The translations under genes and the position numbers were made by a program. Under the pieces are notes generated by a model. It made no database searches and had not been told where the DNA came from. It worked only from the letters and a program-made list of their open reading frames with translations. From Sphingopyxis sp. LK2115 (GTDB lineage Bacteria; Pseudomonadota; Alphaproteobacteria; Sphingomonadales; Sphingomonadaceae), in assembly GCF_014595975.1 (NCBI RefSeq), contig NZ_JABWGQ010000047.1:62001-126000 (forward strand): a stretch of DNA of 64,000 nt, written 5' to 3'. Position 1 is the first letter of the stretch; every line of letters starts with the position of its first letter. Below, piece by piece: positions 5,765 to 62,204 of the stretch.

Positions 5765-7092
5765 ACCAAGCGCGTGCAAGCAACACGATTTTCGCGCTGT
5801 CGAGCGGGATGCCGCCCGCTGCGATCGCGGTCGTGCGGATCAGCGGGGTCAATGCCGCCCAGGCGTTGCAGGCGTTGGCAGGGCGGCTGCCGACGCCCCG
5901 ACATGCCTCGCTCGCCAGATTGAAGGGCTGTGATGGCGGCGCGCTCGATCATGCGCTGATCCTCTGGTTTCCGGGGCCAGCGACCGCGACGGGCGAAGAC
6001 CTCGCCGAACTGCACCTGCACGGCGGGCGCGCGGTGGTTGCGGCGGTGGAGGCGGCGCTGGCGGCGATGCCGGGATTACGGCGCGCGGCGCCTGGCGAAT
6101 TTACGCGGCGGGCGTTCGAGAATGGACGGATCGACCTTGCCGAGGCCGAAGGACTGGCCGATCTGCTCGCGGCCGAAACCGAAAGCCAGCGGGTGCAGGC
6201 ACTGGACCATGCGAGCGGGCATGTATCGCGCGCAGTGGCGGGATGGCAGGATCGGCTGCTCGGGCTGATGGCAGAGGCGGAGGCCGAGCTCAATTTTTCC
6301 GATGAGGATGATGTCGACGTTGGCGAAGGGGTTGCGCAGCGCGTGCTGGAAGGGATGGCGACGCTGGCCGGAGAATTGGGCGCATGGCTGGCGCGGCCGG
6401 CTGCCGAGGTGATTTCGGAAGGCTTGTCCGTGGTGATCGCGGGACCACCCAATGCCGGTAAATCGACTCTTATCAACGCGTTAGCTAAAAGGGAACTCGC
6501 GATCGTGTCGCCGGTCGCGGGGACAACCCGTGACGTGATCGAAACGTCGCTGGCGCTTGACGGTATCGCGATGCGCTTTTCGGATACCGCAGGACTGCGC
6601 GGCGAAAGCGCCGATACGATCGAAGCCATAGGGATCGATCGCGCCAGGGCGGCGATCGAGGCGGCCGATATATTGCTGTGGCTCGGGCCGCCCACGGAAG
6701 CGCCCGACCACCCGCGCACGATCCTGATTGCGGCGCAGGCCGACCGCTGGCGCGGCGATGCGGCGGCCGAAGCAGCGGCCGCGCGATGCGACCTCATCCT
6801 GTCGGCGGCGACAGGCGAGGGTCTGGACAAGCTGCATCACCTGATCGTCGAAATGGCACGGACACTGTTGCCGCGCGAGGGCGAAGCCGCCTTGCGTCAG
6901 CGCCATCGAGCTGCATTAGGTGATGCAAAACAATGGCTTGATGTCGATCCCGGTTCGCGCGAGGCGGGCGATCTGATCCTGCTCGCCGAACGCCTCCGGC
7001 TCGCCGCGACCGCGCTGGACCGGATCACGGGGCGTGCCGGGGTCGAGGATATGCTCGATGCGCTGTTCGGGCGATTCTGCATCGGCAAGTGA
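5761..7092 (+). CDS. mnmE: tRNA modification GTPase MnmE (TrmE), probable CTG start
   Basis: With MnmG, installs the cmnm5/nm5 group on U34 of certain tRNAs using methylene-tetrahydrofolate and GTP. The protein is 443 residues from CTG 5761. The conserved N-terminal TIFALSSG strand lies upstream of the first ATG (5809), and the frame closes at a stop at 5731, so initiation must be at a non-ATG codon. CTG 5761 has AAGGGA eight bases upstream and overlaps the preceding stop. Domains: folate-binding N-terminus; G1 GPPNAGKS; TTRDVIE; DTAGL; SAATGEG; and the C-terminal CIGK. The G4 motif, usually NKxD, reads AAQAD. Next come a parS site and mnmG. Confidence 0.95.
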   Translation: MNQARASNTIFALSSGMPPAAIAVVRISGVNAAQALQALAGRLPTPRHASLARLKGCDGGALDHALILWFPGPATATGEDLAELHLHGGRAVVAAVEAALAAMPGLRRAAPGEFTRRAFENGRIDLAEAEGLADLLAAETESQRVQALDHASGHVSRAVAGWQDRLLGLMAEAEAELNFSDEDDVDVGEGVAQRVLEGMATLAGELGAWLARPAAEVISEGLSVVIAGPPNAGKSTLINALAKRELAIVSPVAGTTRDVIETSLALDGIAMRFSDTAGLRGESADTIEAIGIDRARAAIEAADILLWLGPPTEAPDHPRTILIAAQADRWRGDAAAEAAAARCDLILSAATGEGLDKLHHLIVEMARTLLPREGEAALRQRHRAALGDAKQWLDVDPGSREAGDLILLAERLRLAATALDRITGRAGVEDMLDALFGRFCIGK

Positions 7093-7108
7093 CGTTCCAC
7101 GTGGAACA
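7093..7108. promoter_or_regulatory. parS centromere site 1
   Basis: The 14-base palindrome GTTCCACGTGGAAC (7094-7107) with flanks C and A. It matches the near-universal ParB-binding parS consensus (TGTTTCACGTGAAACA and variants) apart from the first base. It starts immediately after the mnmE stop codon. Confidence 0.88.
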
Positions 7109-7167
7109 TCGGACCACCGGGCGCGGTGGATTCGCGCTCCGCTTTGCGCTAAAGGCGGCCGCCGATC

Positions 7168-9039
7168 ATGGATAGCAGTACAAACTTTGATGTCATCGTC
7201 GTCGGCGGTGGGCACGCCGGAACCGAGGCCGCCGCCGCCGCGGCGCGGCTTGGCGCGCGCGTCGCACTCGTCAGCTTCGACCCCGCGTTGATCGGGACGA
7301 TGTCGTGCAACCCGGCGATCGGGGGGCTGGGAAAAGGCCATCTGATGCGCGAGGTCGACGCACTCGACGGTTGGATGGCGCGCGCGGCCGACGCGGCGGG
7401 GATTCATTACCGGATGCTCAATGCGTCGAAGGGCGCGGCGGTGCAGGGACCGCGCGTCCAGGCCGATCGCAAACTGTATCGGCAGGCGATCCAGGATCTG
7501 ATCGCGGCGGAGGAAGCTATCGCGATCATCGAAGGCGAAGCCGCTGCGCTGATCCTTGCGGACAACGGCGCGCGCGTGGCGGGGCTCGAGCTTGGCGACG
7601 GCGCAAGATTGACCGCGGGCGCGGTGGTGCTCGCGACAGGCACTTTCCTTGGCGGGCGACTGTTTCGCGGCGAAGAACGGATGGAGGGCGGGCGCATCGG
7701 CGAAGCGGGGGCACTCCGGCTCGCCGCGCAGCTTCGCGCCGCCGATCTGCCAATGGCGCGGCTCAAGACGGGAACCCCGCCGCGACTCGACGGGCGCACG
7801 ATCGATTGGGCGCGGCTTGCCGAACAACCGTCGGACAGCTCCGAGGGGGCGACCTGGACCTGTTCCACGTGGAACAATGCGCGGATCGTGCCGCAGATTT
7901 TCTGCGCGATCACGCGCACCAACGCCGAATCGCACCGAATCATCGCCGATAATCTGCATCGTTCGCCGCTGTTCACCGGCGCGATCGGTGCGGCGGGGCC
8001 GCGCTATTGCCCGTCGATCGAGGACAAGATCCACCGCTTCGCCGATCGCGACGGGCATCAGATATTCCTCGAACCGGAAGGGCTCGACACGCATCTTGTT
8101 TATCCGAACGGCATTTCGACCTCGCTCCCCGCCGATGTGCAGCTCGCGATGCTGCGCACGATGGAGGGGCTTGAGACGGTCGAAATGGTCGTCCCCGGCT
8201 ATGCGGTCGAATATGACCATATCGATCCGCGCGCGCTCGACCGAACATTGCAGGTCCGCGCTATCGGTGGGCTGTGGTGCGCGGGGCAGATCAACGGCAC
8301 GACCGGATATGAGGAAGCCGCGGCGCAGGGGCTGGTCGCGGGCGCCAATGCCGCGCTCGCCGTCCAGGGGCGCGATCCTTTGATCCTTGATCGGTCCGAA
8401 TCCTATATCGGGGTGATGGTCGACGACCTGGTGTTGCAGGGGGTGACCGAGCCTTACCGGATGCTCACCGCGCGTGCCGAATATCGCTTGCGGCTGCGCG
8501 CCGACAATGCGGCGACGCGGCTGACGCCGAAGGGGATGGCACTGGGGCTGGTGCGGTCCGCGACCGCGGCGCTGTTCGACGCGCGGATGGCCGCGCGCGC
8601 GCGCGCGGAGACGCTGCTCGAAGCGCCGGTGGCGACTGCCGATTATGCGGCGATCGGATTGCCGCTGCCCGGTGACGGCATCGCGAGGCGGCGAATCGAC
8701 CTGATGCGTTTTCCCGACATGACGGTCGAGCGATTGAAGAGGCTGGTTCCCGATATCGAATCGATCGATCGGGCGATCCTGTCCGAAGTCGTCGAAGACG
8801 CGCATTATGCGCCCTATATCGCGCGCCACGAAGCCGAACTCCGCGCGCTCGCGGCGAACGAGGCGATCATTCTTGACCCCGCGCTTGACTATGGCGCGAT
8901 CGGCGGACTGTCGCGCGAGATGGTCGAACGGCTGACCAAGGCACGCCCCGAAACCTTGGGGCAGGCGTCGCGGATCGACGGGGTGACACCTGCGGCGCTC
9001 ACGGCGATCATGGTGCATAGCCGGCGGCGCGCGGCTTGA
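7168..9039 (+). CDS. mnmG: tRNA uridine-5-carboxymethylaminomethyl modification enzyme MnmG (GidA)
   Basis: The FAD-dependent partner of MnmE in wobble-uridine modification; 623 residues, the usual length. The FAD-binding Rossmann motif [12 protein letters not shown] lies near the N-terminus, followed by the signature [12 protein letters not shown] and the blocks [20 protein letters not shown] and [11 protein letters not shown]. The C-terminus has the MnmE-binding helical region ending [15 protein letters not shown]. One variable loop ([11 protein letters not shown], about residues 230-240) is encoded over a perfect parS palindrome. It begins after a parS-bearing 75-base gap with an AAAGG-type ribosome-binding site. 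Confidence 0.97.
7861..7876. promoter_or_regulatory. parS centromere site 2 (inside mnmG)
   Basis: TGTTCCACGTGGAACA, a perfect 16-base palindrome lying within mnmG and read there as Cys-Ser-Thr-Trp-Asn. It is identical to site 3. Confidence 0.93.
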
Positions 9040-9238
9040 ATCGGAGGCGAGCTTCATTCGCGACGATGCCGGAGAGCGCATAGTGGCGCCGGTGCGAGAG
9101 GCTTCCCAAATTTCACGCAAGGGTGCAGAGGCATGAAGAGGAAGCTGGATTCCCGCGCGGCGCCGCAAATCGCCTGCGACTCAGCGGCAATGACGAGACA
9201 GGAATGGGCAGCTGGTGAGTTCTGACAGCGGCGTATTG

Positions 9239-9877
9239 ATGAACGAAGGTGAAGCGCGCGACTGGATTGCAAGCAGCTTCGCGCCGACTTCGGCGCAATG
9301 GGCCGGCCTCGAGCGTTTCGCGGCGATGCTTGTCGCCGAGAACAAGCGGCAGAATCTGATCGCCGCGTCGACGATCCCGACAATTTGGGTGCGGCATATT
9401 GCCGACAGCGCGCAGTTGCTCGCACTTGATACCAGAGTCGGGGGGCTTTGGGTCGATATGGGAAGCGGGCCGGGATTGCCGGGGCTGGTCGTTGCGATCC
9501 TGAGCGCGCGACCGATGCTGCTCGTCGAATCGCGCCGCCGCCGCTGCGATTTCCTGCGCACGGTCGTGGCCGAGCTGGGTCTCGGCCATGTGGAGGTCGC
9601 CGAAGCGCCGCTCGAACGCGTTGAAACGCGCCCCGCGGCGACGATCAGCGCGCGCGCCTTTGCGCCGCTCGACCGGCTCATCGACTTATCCGCGCGCTTT
9701 TCCACCGAATCGACGCGCTGGTTGCTGCCAAAAGGGCGAAACGGGGTTAAGGAACTGGCGTCGCTGCCCGATGCATGGCAGAGAATGTTCCACGTGGAAC
9801 AGAGCCGTACCGATGCCGACAGCGGCATATTGGTCGGAACGGGGCGTATCGCGCCGAAAAAGCGAGGGAAAGCATGA
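9239..9877 (+). CDS. rsmG: 16S rRNA (guanine527-N7)-methyltransferase RsmG (GidB)
   Basis: Methylates N7 of G527 in 16S rRNA with S-adenosylmethionine. From ATG 9239 the protein has 212 residues. It shows the family's NLIAAST and VRHIADSAQL blocks, the SAM-binding glycine loop VDMGSGPGLPGL, and the later ISARAFAPL motif. The start is uncertain: GTG 9215 in the same frame adds eight residues, and neither has a strong Shine-Dalgarno; 9239 (MNEGEARDW) looks more like homologues. A perfect parS lies near the 3' end, read as Phe-His-Val-Glu. The stop overlaps the parA start in ATGA. Confidence 0.95.
   Translation: MNEGEARDWIASSFAPTSAQWAGLERFAAMLVAENKRQNLIAASTIPTIWVRHIADSAQLLALDTRVGGLWVDMGSGPGLPGLVVAILSARPMLLVESRRRRCDFLRTVVAELGLGHVEVAEAPLERVETRPAATISARAFAPLDRLIDLSARFSTESTRWLLPKGRNGVKELASLPDAWQRMFHVEQSRTDADSGILVGTGRIAPKKRGKA
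9786..9801. promoter_or_regulatory. parS centromere site 3 (inside rsmG)
   Basis: TGTTCCACGTGGAACA, a perfect 16-base palindrome in the last 100 bases of rsmG, 72 bases before the parA start. Bound ParB could also influence parAB transcription (inference). Confidence 0.93.
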
Positions 9878-10656
9878 TTCGCATTGCCGTGGCGAACCAG
9901 AAGGGTGGGGTCGGCAAGACAACGACGGCGATCAATCTGGCAACCGCACTCGCGGCGACGGGCTGGCGCACGTTGATCATCGACCTCGATCCGCAGGGCA
10001 ATGCTTCGACGGGGCTGGGGATCAAGCAGTCGCAACGCGAATGTTCAAGCTACGAATTGCTGCGCGGGGATGCGACGGTGACCGAATGTGCGATCGCAAC
10101 CGCCGTGCCTCGGCTCGACATCGTCAGCGCGACGGTCGACCTGTCGGGCGCCGAGATCGAGCTGATCGAGTTTCAGGACCGCCTTCACCGGCTGCAAAAA
10201 GCCCTGTCGGGCACCGAAGCGGGGCAATGGGACATTTGCCTGATCGATTGCCCGCCCTCGCTGGGGATGCTGACCCTCAATGCGTTGATCGCCGCCGAAT
10301 CGCTGCTCGTGCCGCTGCAATGCGAATTTTTTGCGCTCGAAGGATTGAGTCAGCTGCTCACGACGGTTGAGCGCGTGCGCGAGCGTTTCAACCAGAAACT
10401 GTCGATCCTTGGTGTCGCGCTCACCATGTTCGACCGGCGCAACCGGCTGACCGACCAGGTGTCCGACGATGTGCGCGAGGTGCTGGGGCCGGTGGTGTTC
10501 GACACGGTGATCCCGCGCAATGTTCGCTTGTCCGAAGCGCCGAGCCACGGGCTCCCCGCGCTCATCTATGATCATCGCTGCGCCGGGTCGGCGGCCTATA
10601 TCGCGCTCGCGCGCGAGTTGATCGACCGGCTTCCCGCGATTCGCAAGGCAGCATAA
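9874..10656 (+). CDS. parA: Chromosome partitioning ATPase ParA (Soj)
   Basis: A Walker-type ATPase that binds DNA and moves ParB-parS complexes during chromosome segregation. The 260 residues carry the deviant Walker A KGGVGKTT at 10-17, the A' motif IDLDPQGNAS, and Walker B-like CLIDCPPSLGML. ATG 9874 overlaps the rsmG stop by four bases; upstream in-frame sequence has no ParA similarity. parB begins directly at the stop (TAAATG). Three parS sites upstream confirm a chromosomal rather than plasmid system. Confidence 0.98.
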   Translation: MIRIAVANQKGGVGKTTTAINLATALAATGWRTLIIDLDPQGNASTGLGIKQSQRECSSYELLRGDATVTECAIATAVPRLDIVSATVDLSGAEIELIEFQDRLHRLQKALSGTEAGQWDICLIDCPPSLGMLTLNALIAAESLLVPLQCEFFALEGLSQLLTTVERVRERFNQKLSILGVALTMFDRRNRLTDQVSDDVREVLGPVVFDTVIPRNVRLSEAPSHGLPALIYDHRCAGSAAYIALARELIDRLPAIRKAA

Positions 10657-11616
10657 ATGACTGAAAAAAAGGAAGAAAATATCACATCTCCGCCGCGGAA
10701 ACGTCCGTCCGGCCTGGGGCGCGGGCTGAACGCACTGTTCGGCGACGCCGCGGTCGAGGCGCCGGTTCTGGCAACGCCGGGCGGCGCGGCGCGCGCCGCG
10801 CCGGTTGCGGGCGATTCCGTGCAGCATGTGCCCGTTGGCGCGATCCGCCCGCTGCCCGGTCAGCCGCGCCGCCATTTCGACGAGGAGGCGATCGCCGAGC
10901 TTGCCGATTCGATCGGCTTGCGTGGCTTGTTGCAACCGATCATCGTGCGCCGGTCGCCCGATGGCGAGGGTTATCAGCTGGTCGCGGGTGAGCGCCGCTG
11001 GCGTGCGGCGCAGCGCGCGGGGCTGCACCAGATCCCCGCGCTCGTGCGCGAACTGGACGATGCCGCGACCTATGAGATCGCGCTTGTCGAGAATATCCAG
11101 CGGCAGGATTTGAACGCGATCGAGGAAGCGAGCGCCTATCGCCGCCTGATCGAGGATTTCGGACATAATCAGGAAGCGCTCGCGAAACTGGTCGGCAAGT
11201 CGCGCAGCCATGTCGCCAATCTGATGCGCCTGCTCGACCTGCCCGACGCCGTGCAGGCGCTCGTCGGCGACGGGGCGCTCGCGATGGGCCATGCGCGCGC
11301 GCTGATCGGCGCCGACGATGCCGAAGCGATCGCGCGCAAGGTGGTCAGGGAAGGCCTGTCGGTCCGCGCCGTCGAGGCGCTCGTGCGCGCGGGCAAGGGC
11401 GGTGGGCGCAAGGCGCCGCTCGAATATAAGAGCATGGACGGTCCCGGCGGGCGCGACCCCGACATCGTCGCGGTCGAGCGTCATCTGTCCGAACTGCTCG
11501 GCATCGGCGTCGGCATTCAATATGCAGGCGAGGGCAAGGGTGCGCTGACGCTGAAATTCGCGTCGCTCGATCAGCTCGACATGATCTGCCAGCGATTGTC
11601 GGGCGAAGGTATCTAG
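10657..11616 (+). CDS. parB: Chromosome partitioning protein ParB (Spo0J)
   Basis: A CTP-dependent clamp that loads at parS and spreads along DNA. In its 319 residues an N-terminal ParA-activating tail (basic, RPSGLGRGLNALFGD) is followed by a low-complexity linker and the ParB/sulfiredoxin-like domain from about 60. That domain includes the CTP-binding GERRWRAAQRAG motif. The helix-turn-helix region carries NIQRQDLNAIEEA and KLVGKSRSHVANLMRLL, and the C-terminal dimerisation segment closes the protein. It starts immediately after the parA stop. In many alphaproteobacteria parB is followed by DNA polymerase delta subunit genes; here a surface-fibre locus follows. Confidence 0.98.
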   Translation: MTEKKEENITSPPRKRPSGLGRGLNALFGDAAVEAPVLATPGGAARAAPVAGDSVQHVPVGAIRPLPGQPRRHFDEEAIAELADSIGLRGLLQPIIVRRSPDGEGYQLVAGERRWRAAQRAGLHQIPALVRELDDAATYEIALVENIQRQDLNAIEEASAYRRLIEDFGHNQEALAKLVGKSRSHVANLMRLLDLPDAVQALVGDGALAMGHARALIGADDAEAIARKVVREGLSVRAVEALVRAGKGGGRKAPLEYKSMDGPGGRDPDIVAVERHLSELLGIGVGIQYAGEGKGALTLKFASLDQLDMICQRLSGEGI

Positions 11617-61799: not shown

Positions 61800-62204
61800 A
61801 TGAACGGCAGTTTTTCCGTCTTCGACATCAGCGGCCGCGCCATGTCGGCACAGCTCGTGCGGCTTAACACCACCGCGTCGAACCTCGCCAATGCGGGGAC
61901 GGTCGCGGGCAGCGAGGCAGGCGCCTTTCGTTCGCTGAAGCCCGTCTTTCGCACGGTGATGGACGATCATGGCCGCGCGACGGTGCAGATCGACCAGATC
62001 ACGACTTCGAAAATGGCGCCGTCGAAGCGCCACGATCCGTCGAACCCGCTCGCCGACGCCGACGGCAATGTCTGGGAAGCCGCGGTCGATAGCGCCGCCG
62101 AGCTGGTCGAGATGGTCGAAACCGCGCGCCAGTATCAGAACAATGTCCAGGTCCTCGAAACCGCGAAGGGCCTGATCAACGAAACCCTGAGGATGGGACA
62201 GTAA
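61800..62204 (+). CDS. flgC: Flagellar basal-body rod protein FlgC
   Basis: A proximal rod subunit of 134 residues: FDISGRAMSAQLVRLNTTASNLANAGTVAGSEA, the central KPVFRTVMDD and the C-terminal VEMVETARQYQNNVQVLETAKGLINETL helix. ATG 61800 has GAAGGG at nine bases; ATG 61794 is too close to that site. The start lies two bases after the flgB stop. Confidence 0.95.
   Translation: MNGSFSVFDISGRAMSAQLVRLNTTASNLANAGTVAGSEAGAFRSLKPVFRTVMDDHGRATVQIDQITTSKMAPSKRHDPSNPLADADGNVWEAAVDSAAELVEMVETARQYQNNVQVLETAKGLINETLRMGQ

Follow-up and report, generated by a model that had tools for sequence, protein, structure and literature searches.

Putative parS sites inside mnmG and rsmG of Sphingopyxis, and the protein motifs that probably follow from them

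ParB proteins bound to cytidine triphosphate (CTP) load as clamps at parS sites and spread from there, as is established for ParB elsewhere. In Caulobacter crescentus, parS lies about 8 kb from the origin of replication, and sites are found within essential genes or genes of high fitness cost (PMC5815017). Nine of the ten predicted sites of Pseudomonas aeruginosa, parS1-10, most likely fall in coding sequences, and parS has been mutated there without altering the coding sequence (PMC4368675); some parS sites of repABC megaplasmids are also within open reading frames (PMC9040568). As far as the available passages of these papers go, intragenic parS is already known in Caulobacter and predicted in Pseudomonas. 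Here we analyse a stretch of 64,000 nucleotides of Sphingopyxis sp. LK2115 (assembly GCF_014595975.1, contig NZ_JABWGQ010000047.1, forward-strand positions 62,001 to 126,000), called the window below, with three palindromes upstream of parAB, two of which lie inside mnmG and rsmG. Judging from the sequence, these are very probably the chromosomal parS of an ordinary ParABS system; the codons and some of the amino acids at the two genic copies would be held in place by selection for binding of ParB.

The window resembles Caulobacter in the intragenic kind of site and in a similar distance from the presumed origin (7.5-10.3 kb here, from DnaA boxes to parS). It differs in that the copy at mnmG codon 232 is limited to the genus and that at rsmG codon 191 to the family in our sample, with one near-match; the passages of PMC5815017 leave the host genes unnamed. 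For the P. aeruginosa sites, the passages of PMC4368675 trace no conserved protein motif to a site, and the repABC sites have another consensus, GTTNNCNGCNGNNAAC, and another type of replicon (PMC9040568). Among the ParB/Noc specificity residues R173, T179, A184 and G201 (PMC7383237), the window ParB matches at R173 and G201. In contrast, the ParB of a genus outside the window, here called g192, has an alanine at position 201 and non-canonical sites, although the passages of the same paper describe R173 and G201 as absolutely conserved in ParB. Within the literature searched, the fixed positions within genes, the turnover of these positions and the protein motifs left by them seem to be new. 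Among the matches listed, no paper was found on parS-encoded protein motifs or on ParB-site co-change; no literature was found that combines parS, rsmG and ParB, the matches for parS, mnmG and ParB were off-topic by title, and the passages of PMC8116508, PMC6315104, PMC7022226 and PMC5583512 hold nothing on the gene positions of parS.

The 16-bp palindrome, TGTTYCACGTGRAACA, has three copies in the window:

7093 to 7108, no strand assigned: parS copy 1, CGTTCCACGTGGAACA, one mismatch, the outermost base being off consensus; it begins immediately after the stop codon of mnmE.
7861 to 7876, no strand assigned: parS copy 2, TGTTCCACGTGGAACA, an exact palindrome; mnmG codons 232-237, frame 0 (C-S-T-W-N).
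9786 to 9801, no strand assigned: parS copy 3, TGTTCCACGTGGAACA, an exact palindrome; rsmG codons 191-196, frame 1 (F-H-V-E).

Two exact copies and a one-base variant are what an earlier, sequence-only reading had reported at these positions. It had also read the genic copies in different frames, and rightly so, since the palindrome begins on the first base of mnmG codon 232 at position 7861 (TGT TCC ACG TGG AAC, CSTWN) and on the second base of rsmG codon 191 at position 9786 (A-TG TTC CAC GTG GAA CA-G, MFHVEQ). The sites are spaced by 768 and 1925 bp; in 69 loci of the genus the corresponding distances are 748-1226 and 1731-2903 bp. At up to three mismatches the window holds just these three matches, against 0.14 expected, and three were reached in 0 of 100 shuffles. 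The whole assembly (3.2 Mb, 61 contigs) has no other place within one mismatch; at two mismatches there are two more, and a reversed control pattern yields one at that level. The presence of two identical copies 1.9 kb apart could speak for chance or a local repeat artefact. We give this explanation practically no weight, in view of the low expected number, the conserved placement in 71-77 of the 77 genus loci, and the different frames and flanks of the copies.

To compare relatives, 304 loci (2.66 Mb) were oriented around mnmG and 293 of them counted; 11 named loci of the genus were set aside as likely duplicates (mnmG site in 10/11, rsmG site in 11/11). The counted loci represent the genus (77 of 80 genomes, three being dropped with mnmG split over contigs), the rest of the family (97 loci: 28 of the 29 genomes of the order draw, and 69 named loci among the matches listed), other families of the order (32 of 83 genomes) and other orders of the class (the 87 best MnmG scores of 127 matching genomes). 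They are called genus, family, order and class loci below. rsmG was recognised in 83 of the 87 class loci, making 289 in total. Probes for the named family loci included WTCSTWNN, so that carriers could be over-represented, yet no carrier was found outside the genus. A further 40 loci, from 93 genomes, lie outside the class (in 32 of them rsmG was recognised, on the strand of mnmG), and 21 more class loci (L319-L339, some of them duplicates) were inspected and kept out of the counts. The closest named MnmG relatives among the matches listed are 86-88% identical and mostly from Sphingopyxis. The 304 loci hold 820 sites within one mismatch of TGTTYCACGTGRAACA, compared to 0 for the reversed pattern. 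Coding sites account for 493 of 787, the class called intergenic including sites beside unrecognised genes, and at least one coding site occurs in 274 of 293 loci. The palindrome sits within codons at differing positions of mnmE, mnmG and rsmG, depending on the lineage. In the family, seven genomes (G143, G194, G206, G232, G245, G309 and G371) have 7-11 sites within one mismatch of TGTTCCACGTGGAACA, where 1-3 are usual.

The commonest position is the mnmE-mnmG intergenic one of copy 1. It is occupied in 77/77 genus loci, 67 of them directly at the mnmE stop, and in 25/28 drawn family, 68/69 named family (among the matches listed), 29/32 order and 58/87 class loci; five more class loci have a site upstream of mnmG where mnmE is unrecognised. 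The mnmG copy, in contrast, is genus-specific: 71/77 genus, 0/97 family, 0/32 order and 0/87 class loci. The six genus loci that lack it are three distant members with MSA-type codons and three with decayed palindromes. The sequence-only reading placed this site in a loop resembling an insertion, which the comparison does not support. The family has WTMSPLN-like residues where this genome has WTCSTWN, a same-length replacement, residue for residue. A three-residue extension does lie just upstream, but it is missing in 24 of 71 carriers and present in 3 of 6 non-carriers, and we reject an insertion origin because site and extension occur independently. In the predicted MnmG model (mean predicted local distance difference test score, pLDDT, 80.6; mean 75 for block 231-240), residues 231-238 form a loop between two short bridges.

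The rsmG copy at codon 191 is essentially family-specific. It is found in 74/77 genus and 86/97 family loci, four more family loci retain its 14-base core, and the alignment position carries a site in 0/32 order and 0/83 class rsmG. One class locus, L204, has a site in the FHVE frame two codons away in the alignment; this locus holds five coding parS-like sites altogether, two in mnmG and three in rsmG. Residues and DNA go together: of the 174 rsmG of genus and family, 164 have both FHV[EK] and the core, 9 have neither, 1 has the core in another frame, and 0 have the residues alone. In the RsmG model (mean pLDDT 91), residues 192-196 form a strand near the C-terminus and residues 23-25 a turn before helix 26-46. 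From their placement in a loop, a turn and a strand of the two models, the sites appear to lie in tolerant parts of RsmG and MnmG.

The turn coincides with another coding position, rsmG codons 23-28 (frame 2), occupied in 3/77 genus, 26/97 family, 31/32 order and 62/83 class rsmG; counted by the 14-base core, the figures are 32/32 for the order and 72/83 for the class. Given this prevalence in order and class, it is probably the older coding parS position, found in rsmG across Alphaproteobacteria and encoding there the RsmG motif V-S/P-R-E-T. The genus would then for the most part have lost both the site and its motif, and the window has at this place:

9284 to 9298, forward strand: rsmG codons 24-28 (PTSAQ), where other Alphaproteobacteria have the older coding parS; by alignment of relatives, this genome lacks it.

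A fourth coding position, near rsmG codon 73, is occupied in part of the family (55/97). Across the 289 rsmG, 133 have both V[SP]R[EG]T and the core GTTYCACGTGRAAC in frame, and 152 have neither; 4 have the motif without the exact core, each on a recognisable parS variant. Among the extra class loci most show the motif with the site, departures including VSHET in L319 and VSRES in L337. Outside the class, V[SP]R[EG]T was found in rsmG of none of the 40 loci, and an all-frame scan gave three motif matches, of which two are in mnmG and the third lies outside rsmG. In two of these outside loci, L373 and L375, parS falls in the 3' half of mnmG, where it too encodes VSRET. Within the class, the extra locus L329 has parS elsewhere in rsmG, in an NLVSRET stretch and not at codons 23-28. 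The rsmG 23 site co-occurs with rsmG 73 or mnmG 232 in 0 of the 174 genus and family loci by raw counts. Mutual exclusion as compensation was nevertheless dropped, being not significant on the tree.

We ranked five-codon windows along each gene by synonymous-codon identity among genomes sharing the residue. In the genus, mnmG 232-236 ranks 1 of 618 (0.966, median 0.614); in order and class, which have no such site, its rank is 287 of 559 (0.380, median 0.384). Windows 23-27 and 24-28 of rsmG rank 1 and 2 of 132 in order and class, and in the family rsmG 191-195 is the first of 156 windows. Synonymous codons are more strictly kept at the sites than in the background of each gene. The codons themselves are unusual: at rsmG codon 25, 10 of 99 serines would be expected to use TCA and 92 do, and at codon 26, 18 of 106 arginines would be expected to use CGT and 103 do. 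A scan by single columns placed the parS columns of genus mnmG at ranks 3 and 7 of 574, a weak result because of shared ancestry, and the windowed test with its no-site control was used instead. Position 12 of the palindrome is G in 77 of 77 frame-0 sites, where A would make TGA, and A in 204 of 294 intergenic sites. Conservation among relatives and codon freezing both back the proposal of the sequence-only reading that these are parS, by sequence and setting, and that their presence has shaped the coding sequence.

In one lineage, both the site and ParB are altered. ParB residues 173 and 201 could be read by pattern in 132 of 293 loci, and a single ParB among them, that of L193, carries A where Caulobacter ParB has G201. 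L193 is one of the four loci with the motif and no exact core, and carries TGTTTCGCGCGAAACA both upstream of mnmG and in rsmG. In its genus, g192 (G503, G724-G733; L193, L393, L396, L397, L399, L400, L403, L405-L409), position 201 is A in 11/11 ParBs, seven read by pattern and four by eye, and the canonical parS core is absent in 11/11 genomes. The centre of the rsmG element, seen in 10 of 11 loci, is GCGC in 3, TCGA in 3, TCAA in 2 and CCGA in 2, and where it is TCAA the peptide is VSQET instead of VSRET (2/10). We take one base that is changed in all ten g192 sites to be half-site position 6 (numbering of PMC7383237). L394, in the family of g192, has VSRET on a one-mismatch core. In the passages of PMC7383237, the G201R change lets ParB read half-site position 6. 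On these sequences, g192 is likely a natural shift of ParB-parS specificity, and the co-change of residue 201 and site is a strong lead, not proof, because it comes from a single lineage.

It could be argued that the residues themselves are selected, CSTWN serving MnmG and FHVEQ or VSRET serving RsmG, with the palindrome incidental. VSRET is indeed common in alphaproteobacterial RsmG, and FHVEQ is a strand in the RsmG model. This explanation does not account for the near-fixed, unusual codons at rsmG 25 and 26, for the change to VSQET with the TCAA centre in g192 or for the absence of the rsmG motif from the 40 loci outside the class. Nor does it fit the strict motif being kept without the exact core in only 0/74 genus, 2/71 family and 2/11 class rsmG, and we consider it improbable. 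The sequence-only reading had proposed looking for residues kept without palindromic codons. In rsmG they almost never are (4/289 for the motif, 0/174 for FHV[EK]); in mnmG they are, in three of 77 genus loci, which hold CSLWN, FSTWN and FSTWN despite a decayed palindrome. These three loci favour selected residues and count against parS as the reason for them.

Several other points weigh on the same side. The near-motifs VSHET (L218, L241) and VSSET (L041) stand on one-mismatch cores, and copy 1 itself deviates from the consensus at an outer base. The parS window of genus rsmG ranks 9 of 204, outranked by frozen codons 161-167, and the constraint there is thus not parS alone. The argument from G at position 12 is weak, because 71 of the 77 frame-0 sites have one mnmG origin and the genus frame-1 sites are also all G (74/74). 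Related genomes are non-independent: on the MnmG tree (206 rows) as few as 2 state changes explain mnmG 232, the minimum being 6 for rsmG 191, 7 for rsmG 73 and 8 for rsmG 23, and when independent pairs are compared, the exclusion between older and newer coding sites does not reach significance. Finally, g192 is one lineage and several of its genomes are incomplete (74-98%).

Other stretches of rsmG are also frozen. Codons 161-167 are the most codon-frozen of genus rsmG (ranks 1-3 of 204); at 9686-9712 of the window (codons 158-166) we find a second element, TTATCC...TTTTCCACCGAATCG, with TTTTCCACA in many of the family members shown. We take it to resemble a DnaA box with a GANTC methylation site, upstream of parAB. 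At codons 180-182, GAA-TTG-ACC is frozen in order and class, TTG encoding 81 of 89 leucines against 16 expected; by its sequence, it may be the -35 box of a promoter for parAB that lies within rsmG.

With a class-wide frozen, -35-like GAA-TTG-ACC and the TTTTCCAC element in rsmG upstream of parA, regulatory DNA may exist in this gene, and the palindromes could in turn be transcriptional or RNA elements, such as an operator or an attenuator hairpin, of the mnmEG-rsmG-parAB region. They match the parS consensus, however, they sit within codons at positions of three genes that differ by lineage, and their centre is altered in the lineage with an altered ParB residue 201. We therefore regard a regulatory element as very improbable; if the palindromes are parS, ParB may still affect local transcription.

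As parS, each site would be loaded with ParB as a CTP-dependent clamp that slides into the flanking DNA. Caulobacter ParB spreads up to about 2 kb around one site in Escherichia coli (PMC5815017), and with spacings of 768 and 1925 bp we infer one continuous ParB zone. A single partition complex would thus cover mnmG-rsmG-parAB and be moved by ParA once the presumed nearby origin is copied. Selection for ParB binding would fix the codons and part of the amino acids at the two genic sites. Coding sites would move: the ancestral site at rsmG 23-28 would have been lost in most of the genus, rsmG 191 would have gained a site at the level of the family, and mnmG 232, by substitution, one at the level of the genus. 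On this view, the motifs in the proteins would be by-products of the DNA site. We think it likely, with less confidence than for the identity of the sites, that V-S/P-R-E-T of RsmG, FHVE of the family and CSTWN of the genus MnmG exist because a centromere is written there, and that the protein follows the DNA, the motif being lost when the site moves and becoming VSQET in some g192 members.

The sites lie just upstream of parAB, as the sequence-only reading had it, and matches to hidden Markov models confirm mnmE, mnmG, rsmG and parB around them:

5809 to 7092, forward strand: mnmE (NF003661).
7168 to 9039, forward strand: mnmG, host of parS copy 2 (TIGR00136).
9215 to 9877, forward strand: rsmG, host of parS copy 3 (TIGR00138); a GTG start is taken, with an in-frame ATG at 9239.
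9874 to 10656, forward strand: parA, with the Walker motif KGGVGKTT and ParA/MinD-family matches, all below cut-off.
10657 to 11616, forward strand: parB, TIGR00180 above cut-off, with motifs GERRWRA and ENIQR.

We take GERRWRA and ENIQR to be the CTPase motifs of ParB. Elsewhere in the genome, the four ParB-like matches are all weak, with E-values no better than 5.9e-8. Nucleoid occlusion by Noc, whose binding site (NBS) is ATTTCCCGGGAAAT, does not fit. The site is of parS type, and the protein scores 218.8 bits with the nucleoid_noc model, against a cut-off of 315; aligned to Caulobacter ParB 6t1f, it has R and G at the equivalents of R173 and G201, not the Q173 and R201 of Noc.

Upstream are, among other genes, rho and the end of hemE. 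Beside hemE, past the left edge of the window at about -510 to -400, there are three perfect DnaA boxes; four other genomes of the genus share this arrangement, with two or three of the boxes and exact parS. Cumulative GC skew is approximately flat at the boxes, its sustained rise starting some 4-5 kb beyond. Inside the window there is no excess of DnaA boxes (9 matches at up to one mismatch against 6 expected, a number reached in 18 of 100 shuffles).

Altogether, this would be a clean example of how a requirement for DNA binding can dictate the sequence of proteins, here those of conserved housekeeping genes. A natural control comes with it: in the same gene, where the site is absent, the motif is absent. 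It warns against taking VSRET of RsmG or CSTWN of MnmG as catalytic or structural motifs. It also opens to test how a centromere may move between genes without loss of function and how ParB specificity and its sites may change jointly, the latter being suggested by one genus with A201 in ParB, against the published absolute conservation of G201.

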